Source: Acidimicrobiaceae bacterium (lineage in GTDB: Bacteria > Actinomycetota > Acidimicrobiia > Acidimicrobiales > Microtrichaceae). Taken from it: 9,510 nt of DNA. The notes beneath the pieces were generated by a model. That model was given only the letters and a program-made list of their open reading frames with translations, had not been told where the DNA came from and did not search any database. Location: positions 1-9,510 of the forward strand of contig DORQ01000225.1 of NCBI GenBank assembly GCA_003514205.1. The letters run 5' to 3'. The position numbers were made by a program, and so were the translations under genes. Of this stretch, positions 1,908-9,495 are shown piece by piece (the stretch's first letter is position 1; each line of letters starts with the position of its first letter).

Positions 1908-1962
1908 ACAAGCTGGCACCAGTTCTGCCCCGGGGGGTTGGGCAGATCCGGTGCCAGCTTGT
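1908..1962 (-). terminator. Large two-step hairpin after whiB, possible terminator
   Basis: The 13-base arms ACAAGCTGGCACC (1908-1920) and GGTGCCAGCTTGT (1950-1962) are perfect reverse complements. Inside them, after a symmetric 3x3 internal loop, TCTGCCC (1924-1930) pairs with GGGCAGA (1940-1946) around a nine-base loop. It lies 81 nt after the whiB stop and 47 nt before the tlpA start, so on the minus strand it would end the whiB transcript. No U-tract follows on either strand, so it could instead be an mRNA stabiliser, a factor-assisted terminator or a small repeat element. The structure is certain and its role is inferred. Confidence 0.45.
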
Positions 1963-2043: not shown

Positions 2044-2391
2044 TCATGCGCTTACCAAATAGCGAAACTCGTCCGGCAACGGAACCTGAAGGAGTTGGTC
2101 TTCAGGTCGCGCAACCTTCGGAGGACGCCCTCGCCGTCGCTTGTTGAGGACAATCTTGCCTGCCATGAAGAGCTGACCGCCCCACACCCCCCACTGCTCG
2201 TCACGTTCGAGAGCAGTTCGAAGGCAATTTCCCATGACCGGACATGTTTCGCAGATGCGCTTCGCAGCGGAGATCTCGGTGAGATCGTCGCTGAAGAAAT
2301 GCGCGACCACGGCCTGGGGGCTGTTGGCACAGGCTGCCAACCGTTCCCAGTCGGGTTGTACTGCTGATTGTGGGATGGTCTGGGCGACCAT
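2044..2391 (-). CDS. whiB7: WhiB7-type iron-sulfur transcriptional regulator with C-terminal AT-hook
   Basis: This 115-residue WhiB-family regulator binds a [4Fe-4S] cluster and the housekeeping sigma factor. The four ligand cysteines are Cys21, Cys47, Cys50 and Cys56 (the last three in CETCPVMGNC). They are followed by the family turn GVWGG at 68-72. A basic AT-hook-like stretch, RRRGRPPK (85-92), follows directly. RGRP after GVWGG is the hallmark of the WhiB7/WblC subgroup, which activates intrinsic antibiotic-resistance and redox genes and its own promoter. About 20 residues extend beyond the AT-hook, longer than the 92-residue mycobacterial protein. I chose the ATG at 2391 because AGAAGGA sits 10 nt upstream and the first Cys then falls at its usual distance. 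The frame stays open to 2625, but that extension would translate through the leader hairpin. Subgroup assignment rests on the AT-hook and the leader, not on an alignment. Confidence 0.85.
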   Translation of the reverse strand: MVAQTIPQSAVQPDWERLAACANSPQAVVAHFFSDDLTEISAAKRICETCPVMGNCLRTALERDEQWGVWGGQLFMAGKIVLNKRRRGRPPKVARPEDQLLQVPLPDEFRYLVSA

Positions 2392-2401
2392 GGGAATCAC
2401 G

Positions 2402-2408
2402 TCCTTCT
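2402..2408 (-). promoter_or_regulatory. Ribosome binding site of the whiB7-like gene
   Basis: AGAAGGA on the minus strand lies 10 nt before the ATG at 2391. It decides this start over in-frame upstream candidates, including a GTG four codons... three codons earlier, which would have no spacing to this site. It lies about 90 nt downstream of the leader hairpin. Confidence 0.65.
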
Positions 2409-2496: not shown

Positions 2497-2532
2497 CTGA
2501 AAGGCCGCCGGGTTGCCCCGGCGGCCTTTCAG
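2497..2532 (-). terminator. Perfect 16-bp leader hairpin, candidate attenuator terminator of whiB7
   Basis: The arms CTGAAAGGCCGCCGGG (2497-2512) and CCCGGCGGCCTTTCAG (2517-2532) are exact reverse complements around a four-base loop, making a very stable GC-rich stem with A-rich and T-rich shoulders (AAAGG...CCTTT). This shape is typical of actinobacterial intrinsic terminators, though the U-run after the stem is short. It lies 29 nt after the stop of the upstream ORF and about 105 nt before the whiB start. Transcripts from the leader promoter must therefore read through it to express whiB. A distal stretch of the upstream ORF (CTTCGGCG on the minus strand) could pair with the 5' arm (CGCCGGGG, using two G-U pairs) as a weak antiterminator. 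The pairing is my inference. Confidence 0.75.
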
Positions 2533-2561
2533 AGATCTTCTTCGGTTGAGCGGGTTGCTCG

Positions 2562-2729
2562 CTACGAAGTTCCTCCAGGGCCGTGGGCTGGGTGGCATGC
2601 GGAAAGCGCATTGGTCACTGTCCACTTGGTGTGAATGGTGGTCGCTGGCTTCACGTAGTTACGTGCACGCGACGCGCCGAAGAAAGCAGATGCTGCTTCG
2701 GTTCGGGATGCTGTCGAGGTGCTGAACAC
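2562..2729 (-). CDS. Upstream ORF (55-codon leader peptide) of the whiB7-like gene
   Basis: This small ORF starts with GTG at 2729 and ends with TAG at 2562. AAAGG lies eight nt before the GTG, a good Shine-Dalgarno position, and a candidate transcription start lies about 30 nt further upstream. The peptide is Ser/Thr/Ala-rich at the start, then has a patterned block, SAFFGASRARNYVKP (about 14-28), and a Thr/His/Pro-rich tail. It shows no membrane segment or known domain. Its position between promoter and terminator hairpin matches whiB7/wblC leaders of mycobacteria and streptomycetes, where stalled translation of an upstream ORF prevents termination and so induces the regulator under ribosome-targeting antibiotics. 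The codons for the patterned block also form two short RNA hairpins (2684-2698 and 2652-2665), so conservation there could be at RNA or peptide level. Whether it is translated is inferred. Confidence 0.6.
   Translation of the reverse strand: MFSTSTASRTEAASAFFGASRARNYVKPATTIHTKWTVTNALSACHPAHGPGGTS
2652..2665. repeat. Inverted repeat CACGTA-GT-TACGTG within the whiB7 leader
   Basis: Perfect six-base arms are separated by two bases. As RNA it would form a five-pair stem with a four-base loop (less strained than six pairs and two bases). As DNA it is a near-palindrome that could bind a dimeric regulator. It lies inside the upstream ORF, over the Asn-Tyr-Val codons of its patterned block. Confidence 0.5.
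2684..2698. repeat. Short hairpin in the whiB7 leader
   Basis: AAGCAG and CTGCTT pair around a three-base loop, and the flanks (CTTC and GAAG-type) could extend the stem with a bulge. On the minus-strand transcript this stem lies early in the upstream ORF, just before the Phe-Phe-Gly codons, and could compete with the later segments that may contact the terminator arm. Confidence 0.4.
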
Positions 2730-2768
2730 GTGAAGTGCCTTTGTTCGGGAGAAACGAATTCGTTGCTC

Positions 2769-2834
2769 AGTGTAGGGGCGTGCACCGACATTTCGGTGCG
2801 CACTCAAGAAACCACGCTTCGAGGTCACCGTCAA
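2769..2834 (-). promoter_or_regulatory. Candidate promoter region of the whiB7-like leader, with an inverted repeat
   Basis: Two readings are possible on the minus strand. One uses TACACT (2774-2769, TANNNT type) as the -10, placing the start about 33 nt before the upstream-ORF GTG. The other uses TTGACG (2834-2829) as the -35, with a poor -10 (TTTCTT) 17 nt downstream. AT-rich sequence containing TTAATTCG precedes TTGACG, which resembles the AT-rich element next to the -35 in WhiB7-activated promoters. Between the two lies a perfect inverted repeat, GCACCGA (2782-2788) and TCGGTGC (2793-2799) with a four-base spacer, in the -35 region of the first reading. The region is 46 bp or more downstream of the orn stop. 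Confidence 0.35.
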
Positions 2835-2879
2835 ACGAATTAACGGAATCTTTTGGAAATCTCAGATGTGGAGGGGCGA

Positions 2880-3422
2880 CTAGGGAAGCTGCGATCGGAA
2901 AAGTGTCTCGCGCCAGTAGCGAAGTTCGTTGACGCTTTCGACGATGTCGTCCATAGCCCGATGGGAGGTGGCCTTCTTCGGGGCACCCGAGAGCGAGTCT
3001 GGTTGCCAGCGACGAGCGAGTTCCTTCAGCGTCGAAACGTCGATGGATCGGTAGTGCAGGTATTCCTCGATCTCAGGGAGGTAGGCGGCCAGGAATCGTC
3101 GATCCATCCCAATAGAGTTGCCGCACAGCGGCACCGTTCTTGCCTCGGGAACATGCTCCTTGATGAACGCAAGGGTCTGTGCTCCCGCTTCCGTCAGGGT
3201 GAGCGAGGAGGCCTTGATCTCATTCAGCAGGCCTGACTTGGTGTGCATGGCCACGACGACCTCGTCCATTTTTGCGAGCTCCTCAGGACCTTGATGGACG
3301 ACGAGGTCTGGGCCTTGTGCAACCACGTTGAGGTCATCGTCAGTGACGAGCGTTGCGATCTCCACAATTACGTGTCGCGTCTGATCGAGGCCAGTCATTT
3401 CCAGATCCATCCAAACAAGCAT
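2880..3422 (-). CDS. orn: Oligoribonuclease (DEDDh 3'-5' exoribonuclease)
   Basis: This 180-residue protein, the normal full length, degrades 2-5 nt RNAs, including the pGpG/pApA linear products of cyclic dinucleotide breakdown, in the cytoplasm. All DEDDh residues are visible: Asp6 and Glu8 in WMDLEMTGLD, Asp107 in GNSIGMDRRFL, and His154 with Asp159 in SHRAMDDI. The segment YRSIDVSTLKELARRW (124-139) is the characteristic Orn core and separates it from generic exonucleases and DnaQ-like proteins. There is no Shine-Dalgarno sequence before the ATG at 3422. A TACCAT hexamer ends seven nt upstream, so the message is probably leaderless. It is divergent from dut across 84 bp, and the whiB7-like gene follows downstream on the same strand with its own promoter region between. 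Confidence 0.95.
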   Translation of the reverse strand: MLVWMDLEMTGLDQTRHVIVEIATLVTDDDLNVVAQGPDLVVHQGPEELAKMDEVVVAMHTKSGLLNEIKASSLTLTEAGAQTLAFIKEHVPEARTVPLCGNSIGMDRRFLAAYLPEIEEYLHYRSIDVSTLKELARRWQPDSLSGAPKKATSHRAMDDIVESVNELRYWRETLFRSQLP

Positions 3423-6615: not shown

Positions 6616-9495
6616 TTAGATCTCCGGGAGAGTGGTTACAGGGATCTGTGGCGAGGCTGAACCGTCTTCGCCCGATGGAGGCACCGACTCGGCACCTCCC
6701 AGCACAGTGGTGGACGGAGCGAGACCCTCCTCGATGCCGCGGCTGGACCGCTCCTCGCCGAATGGATCGTTGTCCTCGTAGCCCTCAATCGCTGCAGTCG
6801 CGAGCGCAGGGTCCACGGCCGCCCAGGTCATCGTGATGTCGGCGGTGCCCGATCGGTCGCCGGGTTCGTCTTCTTCGTCTCCGTACCAATACAGCTCGAT
6901 CGAGCACACCTCGTCCTCCTCAGCGAGCACGTACACGGTCCCGGCTTCGCCGGGAATCAAGTCGACGTCCTCGGAGGAATCACTGCTATCGCAGTACACC
7001 GCTACTGAGACGCTCGCTGGTGAAGTGATGGTTACTGCGACCGCTGATCCTCCAAGAACTTGGAATGGCTCCGTCGAGTAGCTGTAGTCAGAGAGGTCGT
7101 ACCGAACGACTGCCGAGTTGGGGTCGACACGAGAAAAGCCAGGCCGCTCGGTGGGGACATAGATGCCGTATTGGCCGTCCTCAAGAATTCCACTTCCGCT
7201 GGACTCATAGCTGGGGTCAAGCTCCTCGGGTCCGCTGTCACCTTCCTGGTTGTCCTCATCCTCAACGGCTCGGTTGAATGTGAGAATGAGTTGCTGATTC
7301 ATCGAATCAGGATCTGACTGGTCAATCTCGTAGGTATCGAAGATGTCGCCCTGTTCGTTGTACACCTCGATCCAGGTCGAGCCGTCAAACTGCAGGTGGG
7401 CCCGCAGGTACTGCGCTGCAGTCAGTTCGTAGGCAATGACATCACCGGCCGAGATATCGCCAATGATCTCGACTTCCTCTTGGATGCTCTGAGCTTTGAG
7501 GGCTTCGAGGTTCACGATCGCTGTTCGATCCTCGATTCGGCCAACGATTCGAAGGACTGCTCCGTCAATGGCCATTGCCTCGGAGCCTCCGTAGGTGTCG
7601 TATGACCCGTAGCCGGAATCCTCCTCATCGCTGCTGGTATGCAGGACTGAGAGAGTCACGTCCTCGGTGTTGGTCGTTGCTGTTGCGAGGACTGCACCTT
7701 TGGTGTCGACATCGACAAACGCAACGCCTGCTTCGTTGAGTTCCACGGTGTTTGACCCAATGGTGATGGTCTGAGTCGTTTCCGGTGCTTCGTCACTGGA
7801 GGCTCCGAAGGGAAACAGCCCTAACTCTGAGCTGTAGCGCTCAAGGATGGGCCGGGTCAGGTTGGCGACAATCCTACTGAGGTAGTCGGCAAGTGACTCG
7901 ATCGGCGAAACTGCCCAACCATCTCGTTCGGCAACTGCAACGACGGAAACTTGGTTGATGTCGAGCGCCTGAAGGATTCCTCCCTCAACGTCGTTGAGGC
8001 AGCCCTCCTCGACCACCTCGGCATCCTCGGTTGCGGAAAAGCAACCATCTTCGAGCGAATAGGTCACATCGTGGGTCACCGTCGGGAGGTCTTCGTAGTC
8101 CTCGCAGCGATACTCGCAGTCCAAGTATTCGATATAGGCGTCGCTCTCCGTGTCGACCTCCTCAATCTGTCCCTCGATCTTGAAGGAGGTCGCGATGACG
8201 CGTACCCGCGTCTCGTCGATCTTCTCTTCAGCCAGGGTGATGTCAGCCAGCTTCAACTGACTAGCGGCACCCACAATCGAGTCTGTGGCATTTCCCTCAT
8301 CCTCGGCAGTGGTACTCGACTCATTGCCCGAATCGGTGTTATCGGCGAGTTGGCCGTACACGCGCCAAACACTCACTTCCGAAGCCAATGCGTCGGCAAA
8401 GGCATGTGAGTCCCCGTTTTCGATTCCTTTGATCATCGCCATCACGGCGGCCGTGGGGTCAGCTGCCGCGGGGCCAGGATCACGACCATCGAAGTCGATT
8501 TCCTCGCCATCGAACTCCGTCATTCGTAGGTACTCGGCAAGCGTGAAGAATGGAGACAGGTACCAACCTCCATCGCGCCGAACAGCCATCACGAATAGGC
8601 CTGGCCCACCGTGAGAGCGAGCCTTCTGCCGGAGCTCCCCGAGATCCAGTTCGCCATTGCCGAACGAGGATTCGTCTCCGGCGCTGTCTGATTCGAGTTC
8701 GGCTTCGCAGGCTTGGTAGGCCTCATCCCATTCGTCCTCGTCGGCATCAACATCAATGCGCTGATCGACGCATTCGAACAGGGCGTCCTCGTATTCACCG
8801 TCGAGGCCACCGCCGAACATCCATCCAAGGCTCTTCAATGACTCGGCCAGATCGCTTCCTTCCTTCACCTCCGACGCGATCTTGCCATCAAGAATCTGGA
8901 CCTTGGCAATGTCCTCACTCAGTTGGGTTGCATTCACCTTGAGACCTGAGACGCTGAGGTTGAGGCCATCAAGCCGCGGCTCGTCAGTGGTGGGGGCCTC
9001 GACATCGGCGACGCCCAATTCCTGACTCTTCTTGAGTGAAAGCCGGTAAACGTCGGGGAGTGAGCGCACCTCGTCAGGTGCAAGCGTTGCCATGGCGCCA
9101 AGTAGGTCTTCTCCGTCGATTGCTGCGGCGAACTGCTCGACGGCCTCCTCAGGACTCGCTGCTCCGGCACCGTTGCTCATGAGGGTCGCAGTGCCGAGCC
9201 CAATGAGGGCGACCGAGACGAGGCTGCCGATTCCGATGACCAATTTGTTCGACCGTTTCGGCTTCTGCGTGGGAGCGATCGTGGCTTGTGGCCAGATGAA
9301 GTCGCCGCTCAGTCCTGGGGGTGTTCCATAGGATGATCCGGGGGCATGAGGCGGAGAGGCGGGCATCTGCGGCCAGGCGGCAGGTGTCGAGTACGGGGAC
9401 GGCGGGGGCGCCTGTTGCCAGCCTGGCGGTGGGAGCGGCGGCTGAGCTGGGCCAGATCCGGCTGGCTCCGGCGGAAATGGTGGATTGTCAGACAT
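6616..9495 (-). CDS. Large acidic single-pass surface protein with tandem duplicated domain and PPC-like beta domains
   Basis: This 959-residue protein of unknown function has an excellent start: ATG at 9495 with GGAGG six nt upstream. Residues 1-80 are Pro-rich with Gln, Ser and Gly and end in KPKRSNK. A membrane helix follows at about 84-106, so the Pro-rich tail is cytoplasmic and the rest outside. Residues about 112-325 and about 344-542 are two copies of one domain. Each starts with a SPEEAVEQFAAAIDGED-like helix (second copy DPTAAVMAMIKGIENGD) and ends with an AVRRDGGWYLSPFFTLAEYL-like segment (second copy AERDGWAVSPIESLADYL). This resembles NTF2-like/DUF4878-like extracytoplasmic domains. 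Residues about 575-670 and 676-890 are beta-rich, the latter resembling pre-peptidase C-terminal (PPC) domains (ISAGDVIAYELTA, DGQYGIYV). All eight cysteines are outside. The exterior is strongly acidic, with Asp/Glu/Ser runs, and no catalytic motif is seen. Confidence 0.8.
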   Translation of the reverse strand: MSDNPPFPPEPAGSGPAQPPLPPPGWQQAPPPSPYSTPAAWPQMPASPPHAPGSSYGTPPGLSGDFIWPQATIAPTQKPKRSNKLVIGIGSLVSVALIGLGTATLMSNGAGAASPEEAVEQFAAAIDGEDLLGAMATLAPDEVRSLPDVYRLSLKKSQELGVADVEAPTTDEPRLDGLNLSVSGLKVNATQLSEDIAKVQILDGKIASEVKEGSDLAESLKSLGWMFGGGLDGEYEDALFECVDQRIDVDADEDEWDEAYQACEAELESDSAGDESSFGNGELDLGELRQKARSHGGPGLFVMAVRRDGGWYLSPFFTLAEYLRMTEFDGEEIDFDGRDPGPAAADPTAAVMAMIKGIENGDSHAFADALASEVSVWRVYGQLADNTDSGNESSTTAEDEGNATDSIVGAASQLKLADITLAEEKIDETRVRVIATSFKIEGQIEEVDTESDAYIEYLDCEYRCEDYEDLPTVTHDVTYSLEDGCFSATEDAEVVEEGCLNDVEGGILQALDINQVSVVAVAERDGWAVSPIESLADYLSRIVANLTRPILERYSSELGLFPFGASSDEAPETTQTITIGSNTVELNEAGVAFVDVDTKGAVLATATTNTEDVTLSVLHTSSDEEDSGYGSYDTYGGSEAMAIDGAVLRIVGRIEDRTAIVNLEALKAQSIQEEVEIIGDISAGDVIAYELTAAQYLRAHLQFDGSTWIEVYNEQGDIFDTYEIDQSDPDSMNQQLILTFNRAVEDEDNQEGDSGPEELDPSYESSGSGILEDGQYGIYVPTERPGFSRVDPNSAVVRYDLSDYSYSTEPFQVLGGSAVAVTITSPASVSVAVYCDSSDSSEDVDLIPGEAGTVYVLAEEDEVCSIELYWYGDEEDEPGDRSGTADITMTWAAVDPALATAAIEGYEDNDPFGEERSSRGIEEGLAPSTTVLGGAESVPPSGEDGSASPQIPVTTLPEI

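Follow-up and report, generated by a model that had tools for sequence, protein, structure and literature searches.

The leader of the whiB7 gene on the minus strand of the window, by which we mean the whole 9,510-nucleotide stretch of Acidimicrobiaceae DNA that was analysed, is probably (at about 0.88) a ribosome-controlled transcription attenuator, in which two mutually exclusive hairpins would let starvation or drugs be read by way of an upstream open reading frame (uORF). The WhiB7-type box, the uORF, the terminator hairpin and the rival fold are all supported by sequence and by comparison. In growing cells, the ribosome would advance as far as the uORF stop codon, opening the hairpin that holds the stop and lying over the uORF arm; with this arm covered, the terminator would form and RNA polymerase would stop near 2497. 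A drug or the lack of a charged tRNA that stalls the ribosome at least about 12 codons before the stop would leave the uORF arm free to pair with the 5' arm of the terminator before the 3' arm has been made, and polymerase would read into whiB7. WhiB7 would then act, as an amplifier, at the AT-rich box beside its own -35 element. An earlier note on this DNA had proposed an antibiotic-responsive attenuator, a proposal for which the conservation of the uORF, the terminator and the antiterminator speaks; the rival hairpin was missing from its account of the leader.

Table 1. Features of the whiB7 leader and gene in the window, in the order of transcription
Feature	Positions	Strand	Basis or detail
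AT-rich WhiB7-type box TTAATTC	2837-2843	-	TTAATT ends 3 bp before the -35
-35 element TTGACG	2829-2834	-	sequence, lined up with relatives
-10-like TTTCTT, predicted, weak	2806-2811	-	17-bp spacer to the -35
7-bp hairpin GCACCGA-AATG-TCGGTGC	2782-2799	-	at the predicted transcript start
uORF ribosome-binding site AAAGG	2738-2742	-	sequence
uORF, GTG start 2729, 55 codons, stop TAG 2564-2562	2562-2729	-	sequence
Antiterminator, uORF end GCCC-A-CGGCC pairs with terminator 5' arm	2515-2588	-	predicted fold
Nested hairpin with uORF stop codon, inside antiterminator	2540-2569	-	predicted fold
Terminator hairpin, perfect 16-bp stem, 4-nt loop, AAAGG/CCTTT	2497-2532	-	shape; poor T tail
whiB7 ribosome-binding site AGAAGGA	2402-2408	-	sequence
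whiB7/wblC orthologue, ATG 2391	2044-2391	-	115 aa, AT-hook KRRRGRPPK

The whiB7 gene, its promoter and its neighbourhood

The window makes up an entire contig (C62) of a 3.42-Mb draft assembly that comprises 367 contigs and is 85% complete. By its sequence, the regulator is a WhiB7/WblC orthologue with the RGRP AT-hook that the earlier note had pointed out. Its product has a Whib domain (Pfam, 1.3e-15), and a sequence search of the PDB returned WhiB7 (7kif, 2.2e-16) ahead of weaker matches to WhiB (3e-8), WhiB1 (5e-7), WhiB3 (3e-5) and WhiB4 (1e-4), an order that a 16-row profile reproduced with WhiB7 again first. The assembly holds six WhiB genes, this one among them, and the closest of the others matches it at E 1.3e-8. 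Orthologues at E <1e-18 occur in 29 of the 33 family genomes; two of the other four have a WhiB7 box near a contig end, one of these with a uORF. Past the whiB7 stop lies a long inverted repeat (1910-1960, minus strand; AAGCTGGCACC...GGTGCCAGCTT) that is perhaps whiB7's own terminator. Downstream of whiB7 on the same strand, 338-1860 carries thioredoxin-like (ResA/TlpA-type) and DsbD-like membrane genes, possibly redox-linked, and 6616-9495, also on the minus strand, encodes a 959-amino-acid acidic, Ser-rich protein with an apparent membrane anchor (judged by eye) and no Pfam domain.

The earlier note had placed a candidate promoter at 2834-2769, of which the -35 element stood and the far end at 2769 did not, the fitting -10 being the predicted TTTCTT, with a predicted start near 2799; the leader covers about 2799-2391 on the minus strand. 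A sigma-70 scan of the whole window flagged no promoter, TTTCTT included. The AT-rich box about 3 bp upstream of the -35 (TTAATT-CGT-TTGACG) fits predicted autoregulation by WhiB7; in the available part of PMC10727445, an AT-rich sequence 3 bp upstream of the -35 is described for all 56 WhiB7 ChIP-seq regions of M. abscessus. Under a rule that takes the best-scoring site, such a box is present in 64 of 82 leaders. The strict pattern of box plus -35 occurs a single time in the 3.42-Mb assembly, at the window's leader (2843-2829, minus strand). The strict box was matched 21 times in the 33 family genomes, where the reversed pattern gave 7, and the counts in 24 other genomes of the class were 20 and 3. 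Eleven of the 21 family matches are known whiB7 leaders; when the surroundings of the remaining ten were translated, one (L182) proved to be a whiB7-type uORF ahead of a contig end and another (L186) ran off a contig end. A WhiB7-box regulon in the 33 family genomes was considered and is not claimed, as the other eight sites gave no recurrent target.

At the predicted transcript start, the window can form a hairpin with a 7-bp stem (4.0 in shuffles, p 0.010). Among 47 leaders the best stem at this place averages 5.1 bp against 4.1 when shuffled; nine leaders reach p<0.05, and in 25 of the 47 the best stem starts 34-39 nt past the beginning of the -35 (an eye count that includes one stem of only 2 bp). 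This structure is possibly a 5' stabiliser of the leader RNA.

Terminator and rival fold in the leader

The ribosome-binding sites and start codons that the earlier note had assigned to the 55-codon uORF (AAAGG, GTG) and to whiB7 (AGAAGGA, ATG) were confirmed, and the perfect 16-bp hairpin with AAAGG/CCTTT shoulders is present as it was described. This hairpin folds at -35.5 kcal/mol (z -9.24; 0/200 shuffles as good), and no comparable hairpin was found at the five other WhiB loci of the genome. By its shape it would be a Rho-independent terminator between the uORF and whiB7, with a weak T tail: no T run follows it on the minus strand, a pattern scan recognized it as a terminator solely on the plus strand, and 4 of the 16 bases that follow its GGCGGC are T, the lowest count among 111 leaders, whose median is 7, so that termination there may be weak.

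For comparison, 140 loci with a whiB7 orthologue were reduced to 114 distinct leaders, one of which (L034) has no upstream DNA; the set is biased to close relatives, the named scan representing the best 80 of 318. The earlier note had made its reading depend on homologous leaders not lacking both the hairpin and the uORF, and the comparison bore it out: all 113 distinct class leaders that have upstream DNA carry the terminator hairpin, and a uORF could be assigned in 109 of the 111 that are anchored on the hairpin (82 of 84 in a non-redundant set of leaders <85% alike), the exceptions being L019, which is cut by a contig end, and L089. The two leaders beyond the 111 are L026, with its hairpin beside a contig end, and L061, found by an RNA model and then read. 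The automatic terminator rule missed 10 of the 113, the window's leader included because of its lack of T, and chose a wrong hairpin for L061; these cases were settled by eye or by the RNA model. In a later set of 105 loci, the rule found the hairpin in 86 (at least one, L296, doubtful) and a further 10 were recognized by eye, among them L275 and L289 without a T run. Nine loci had no such hairpin (L227, L235, L243, L272, L280, L295, L150, L157 and L158); at L150 and L158 another gene abuts whiB7, and L157 is the second of two neighbouring copies. The leader is thus common, not universal. At 30 loci from other classes the rule found a terminator in 21, of which 17 also have a uORF, and it found none at the other nine; the antiterminator fold is predicted in 15 of these 17, the fold itself having been part of the hairpin choice. 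Three genomes (G034, G059 and G187) each have two WhiB7-like genes about 1 kb apart, and L157 is the second copy of G034, without a leader of its own, which perhaps places two regulators under one attenuator.

A hairpin with a terminator's shape could also be a plain terminator of orn, the oligoribonuclease gene upstream (2880-3422, minus strand), with no switch involved and the whiB7 promoter lying below the hairpin. The gene does precede whiB7 in the same orientation, in the window as in 70 of 114 loci, but it ends within 0.8 kb of whiB7 in only 26 of these 70 and lies 1.3-2.8 kb away in 44, and the leader is still present in 35 further cases without orn in at least 1.5 kb upstream, at least six of which have it farther out in a longer copy of the locus. 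Moreover, the WhiB7 box stands above the uORF and not below the hairpin, and the pairing of the uORF end with the terminator arm is conserved. We regard this explanation as highly improbable. Apart from this question, orn appears to be a lasting neighbour of the leader, found at three classes of distance among the 70 loci.

The attenuator reading includes a predicted antiterminator, formed by the end of the uORF and the 5' arm of the terminator. The window's RNA 2591-2514 has a folding energy of -31.5 kcal/mol (z -2.28; 4/200 shuffles as good), with additional pairs beyond those of GCCC-A-CGGCC. In the minimum-energy folds of 83 of the 84 non-redundant leaders (the exception is L009), the uORF end pairs with 5 or more nt of the terminator's 5' arm, and the nested hairpin overlaps the stop codon in all 82 with an assigned uORF. 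In 82 of 84 leaders the frame ends with its stop 28-45 nt ahead of the terminator core, a count to be read with the knowledge that open frames are frequent in DNA this rich in GC. The antiterminator region has a mean z of -3.83, with 76 of 83 leaders below -2, against -0.95 (15 of 83) for the 78 nt upstream and +0.26 (3 of 83) downstream of the terminator. Leaders' own arms form duplexes of -17.6 kcal/mol compared with -13.6 when shuffled, and the own arm beats most foreign arms in 60 of 84 leaders; the window's arm duplex taken alone is no better than its shuffles (z 0.1).

The earlier note had also named covariation of homologous leaders as a check. No usable consensus came out of RNAalifold when it was applied to all leaders, as leader groups use different registers, and it was replaced by single-sequence folds with controls and by a subset of 24 leaders picked for their similar layout, one of which supplied the structure. 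In this subset, 67.0% of cells are paired against 63.2% when shuffled, and the covariation score is 0.146 against 0.116 (0/500 shuffles in each case); both values exceed those of all six slid versions. Three further measures are weaker, with 8, 39 and 40 of 500 shuffles as high, and cells with double changes number 31, compared with 32 when slid by one. A motif test of arm positions, which is blind to variable positions and leaves out the 30 of 84 leaders without the motif, found co-variation at one position (30 of 54 Watson-Crick against 20.3 permuted; 6/5000) and none at a second (26 against 22.2; 486/5000).

How the ribosome might choose between the folds was explored in a simple simulation, in which the arms pair with P >0.3 in 74 of 81 leaders when the ribosome stands 12 codons before the stop and in 80 at 15 codons; the zeros obtained closer to the stop are a product of the model's geometry. 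For the window, placing a ribosome on the stop lowers pairing of the unfinished terminator from 0.54 to 0.01. At equilibrium the window's finished terminator always wins, and so the choice must, on this model, be kinetic and made during transcription.

A covariance model, R1, was built from these 24 leaders of similar layout, none of them the window's or an analysed leader of the 33 family genomes; three are known to come from other families, and for 21 no family is given. Its best match in the window is 2593-2516 on the minus strand (22.8 bits, E 1.3e-4), followed at E 0.028 by a plus-strand reading of the terminator; within the assembly the same site is the best of five matches (E 0.047, the next 1.6), and the five other WhiB loci gave none at E<=1. 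Across 296 class genomes, R1 has nine matches at E<=0.001, all just upstream of a whiB7 orthologue, although at least two of them, G067 and G227, served in training and some of the rest may nearly duplicate training leaders. It misses most leaders, the window's genome not being among these nine of 296, and only five of 28 family leaders (the window's, L010, L012, L019 and L023) are matched in the correct orientation at E<=1. The matches speak for specificity of the modelled fold; sensitivity is low.

The RNA fold is conserved more strongly than the uORF peptide, as might be expected of a riboswitch-like attenuator in which a ligand or protein picks the fold and the reading frame is incidental. 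Yet the Rfam scan of the window returned only a chance miRNA match away from the leader, and an incidental frame would be hard to square with the narrow range of stop-to-terminator distances, the invariable presence of the assigned stop in the nested hairpin or the non-random composition of the uORFs described below. A switch driven by a ligand or protein is a long shot.

Amino-acid content of the upstream frames

A codon-position test of the peptide indicated weak constraint only (synonymous share 0.364 against 0.265 neutral), and selection on individual uORF residues appears weak. The 76 discovery uORFs of at least 35 codons contain, after the start, a mean of 18.63 kinds of amino acid, compared with 17.22 under pooled reshuffling (sd 0.125, maximum 17.68 of 2000), 16.79 under a codon-position nucleotide shuffle, 15.64 in long-frame fragments from the same loci, and 13.66 and 14.95 in the other frames. 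The later set yielded 80 uORFs, from which 4 that were too short and 23 similar to others were dropped; the remaining 53 average 17.87 kinds against 16.96 (maximum 17.53 of 3000 shuffles). Kinship among leaders lowers the number of independent cases, an effect that an identity filter reduces and does not remove; with it, 74 uORFs of <45% identity still have 18.45 kinds against 17.37. The values are 17.68 and 16.61 once the final 11 codons, situated past the switch point, are removed.

All 20 amino acids occur in 24 of the 74 dissimilar uORFs, compared with 117 of 20000 draws of 62-residue fragments from 98 long reading frames of the same loci. Most of the effect comes from rare residues: Trp is present in 69 of the 74 (49.8 expected), Tyr in 61 (50.1), Cys in 58 (46.7) and Ile in 69 (60.9), whereas Glu (57, 56.0 expected) and Asp (61, 58.2) hardly differ from expectation. 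A Trp-specific sensor was considered and dropped, as other rare residues are under-dispersed too. Seven uORFs from other classes average 17.57 kinds against 16.26, a value equalled by the most extreme shuffle; they lean the same way, and richness may therefore not be special to this class. In one family of another class (f70), L160 and L302 have short whiB7 uORFs of 37 and 40 codons with 18 and 19 kinds. The window's own uORF, with 17 kinds after the start, is slightly below the mean and no showcase for richness: Asp, Gln and internal Met are absent, and its one Trp lies 20 codons ahead of the stop.

This rich content suggests a sampler of every aminoacyl-tRNA, and from the composition one would expect starvation for almost any amino acid to be read. 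We lean slightly towards the stronger proposition that the uORF is a complete sampler, selected to hold at least one codon per amino acid upstream of the switch point.

Drug-sensing arrest peptides are encoded in erm leaders. Were the whiB7 uORF of this type, stalling would be caused by the nascent chain and not by codon supply, and C-terminal motifs such as RRGAPPH and QRPSGAPPG do recur in leader groups. These motifs, however, fall on the pairing arm and vary from group to group, the window's uORF ending in AHGPGGTS, and the weak residue-level selection also argues against an arrest peptide, which we judge very unlikely. A ribosome-controlled attenuator that responds to codon supply or to halted elongation remains the preferred reading.

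Relation to known attenuators

A uORF attenuator of whiB7/wblC in Mycobacterium and Streptomyces was reportedly described by Burian and Thompson in 2018 and by Lee, Lee and Roe in 2022. In the available parts of several reports, stalling in the uORF opens an antiterminator in these mycobacterial and Streptomyces leaders (PMC10727445, PMC9618640, PMC11550727, PMC13393426), and whiB7 is induced by amino-acid starvation, with drug stalling inside its uORF stated as untested (PMC12121999). The window shares with them a WhiB7 orthologue, a long leader with a uORF, a Rho-independent terminator by shape, a predicted antiterminator from overlapping uORF and terminator sequence, and an AT-rich box adjoining the -35; the layout also recurs in several leaders from other classes. 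It differs in belonging to the Acidimicrobiia and in matching no Rfam model. A possible further difference is the predicted nested hairpin that holds the stop codon in leaders of its class, and the uORFs of these leaders, with nearly all amino acids, contrast with the Ala-rich 45-codon frame of the mycobacterium-like L170, which has 15 kinds.

As in trp/his/ilv-type attenuators (e.g. ilvB1 of M. tuberculosis, in the available part of PMC13236596), the position of a ribosome in a leader frame would pick the fold. Unlike those systems, the window has no cluster of codons for a single amino acid, nearly every one being present and the rare ones about once, and the gene controlled is a regulator; the trp-type combination of such a cluster with a biosynthetic gene downstream was not found in the window. 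In the ARE-ABCF attenuators are5sc and tiaA (PMC12421871) and in E. coli toiL (PMC12121999), as far as the available portions of these sources go, a drug-stalled uORF ribosome likewise changes the fold downstream, with other uORFs and other target genes. On the predicted folds, the window's leader is taken as a member of the whiB7/wblC attenuator kind, in another class. The earlier note had expected both an extension to a more distant organism and a divergent version of the mechanism: the extension, to the Acidimicrobiia, stands, whereas the mechanism looks like the known version.

The available part of PMC10205998 mentions a whiB7 clade among marine Acidimicrobiales. Literature searches on WhiB, whiB7 and wblC in Acidimicrobiia, and on uORFs, leaders, riboregulation and antiterminators of whiB7 or wblC, returned no title or abstract on an Acidimicrobiia whiB7 leader, and a search for the idea of a uORF as amino-acid sampler returned none that states it. 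From the sequences compared, the class range of the attenuator and the statistically supported richness of its uORFs appear to be new, neither having been found described in the literature searched.

A probable whiB7 attenuator is now seen in a deeply separate actinobacterial class known largely from environmental assemblies, and the switch therefore looks older than the antibiotic-producing streptomycetes and the mycobacteria. If the sampler proposition is true, a single attenuator would signal both a lack of any aminoacyl-tRNA and the presence of any elongation-halting drug, which would be a simple answer to how one uORF responds to many drugs and to starvation. On this proposition, a uORF that loses its sole codon for one amino acid should leave the switch blind to starvation for that amino acid alone.
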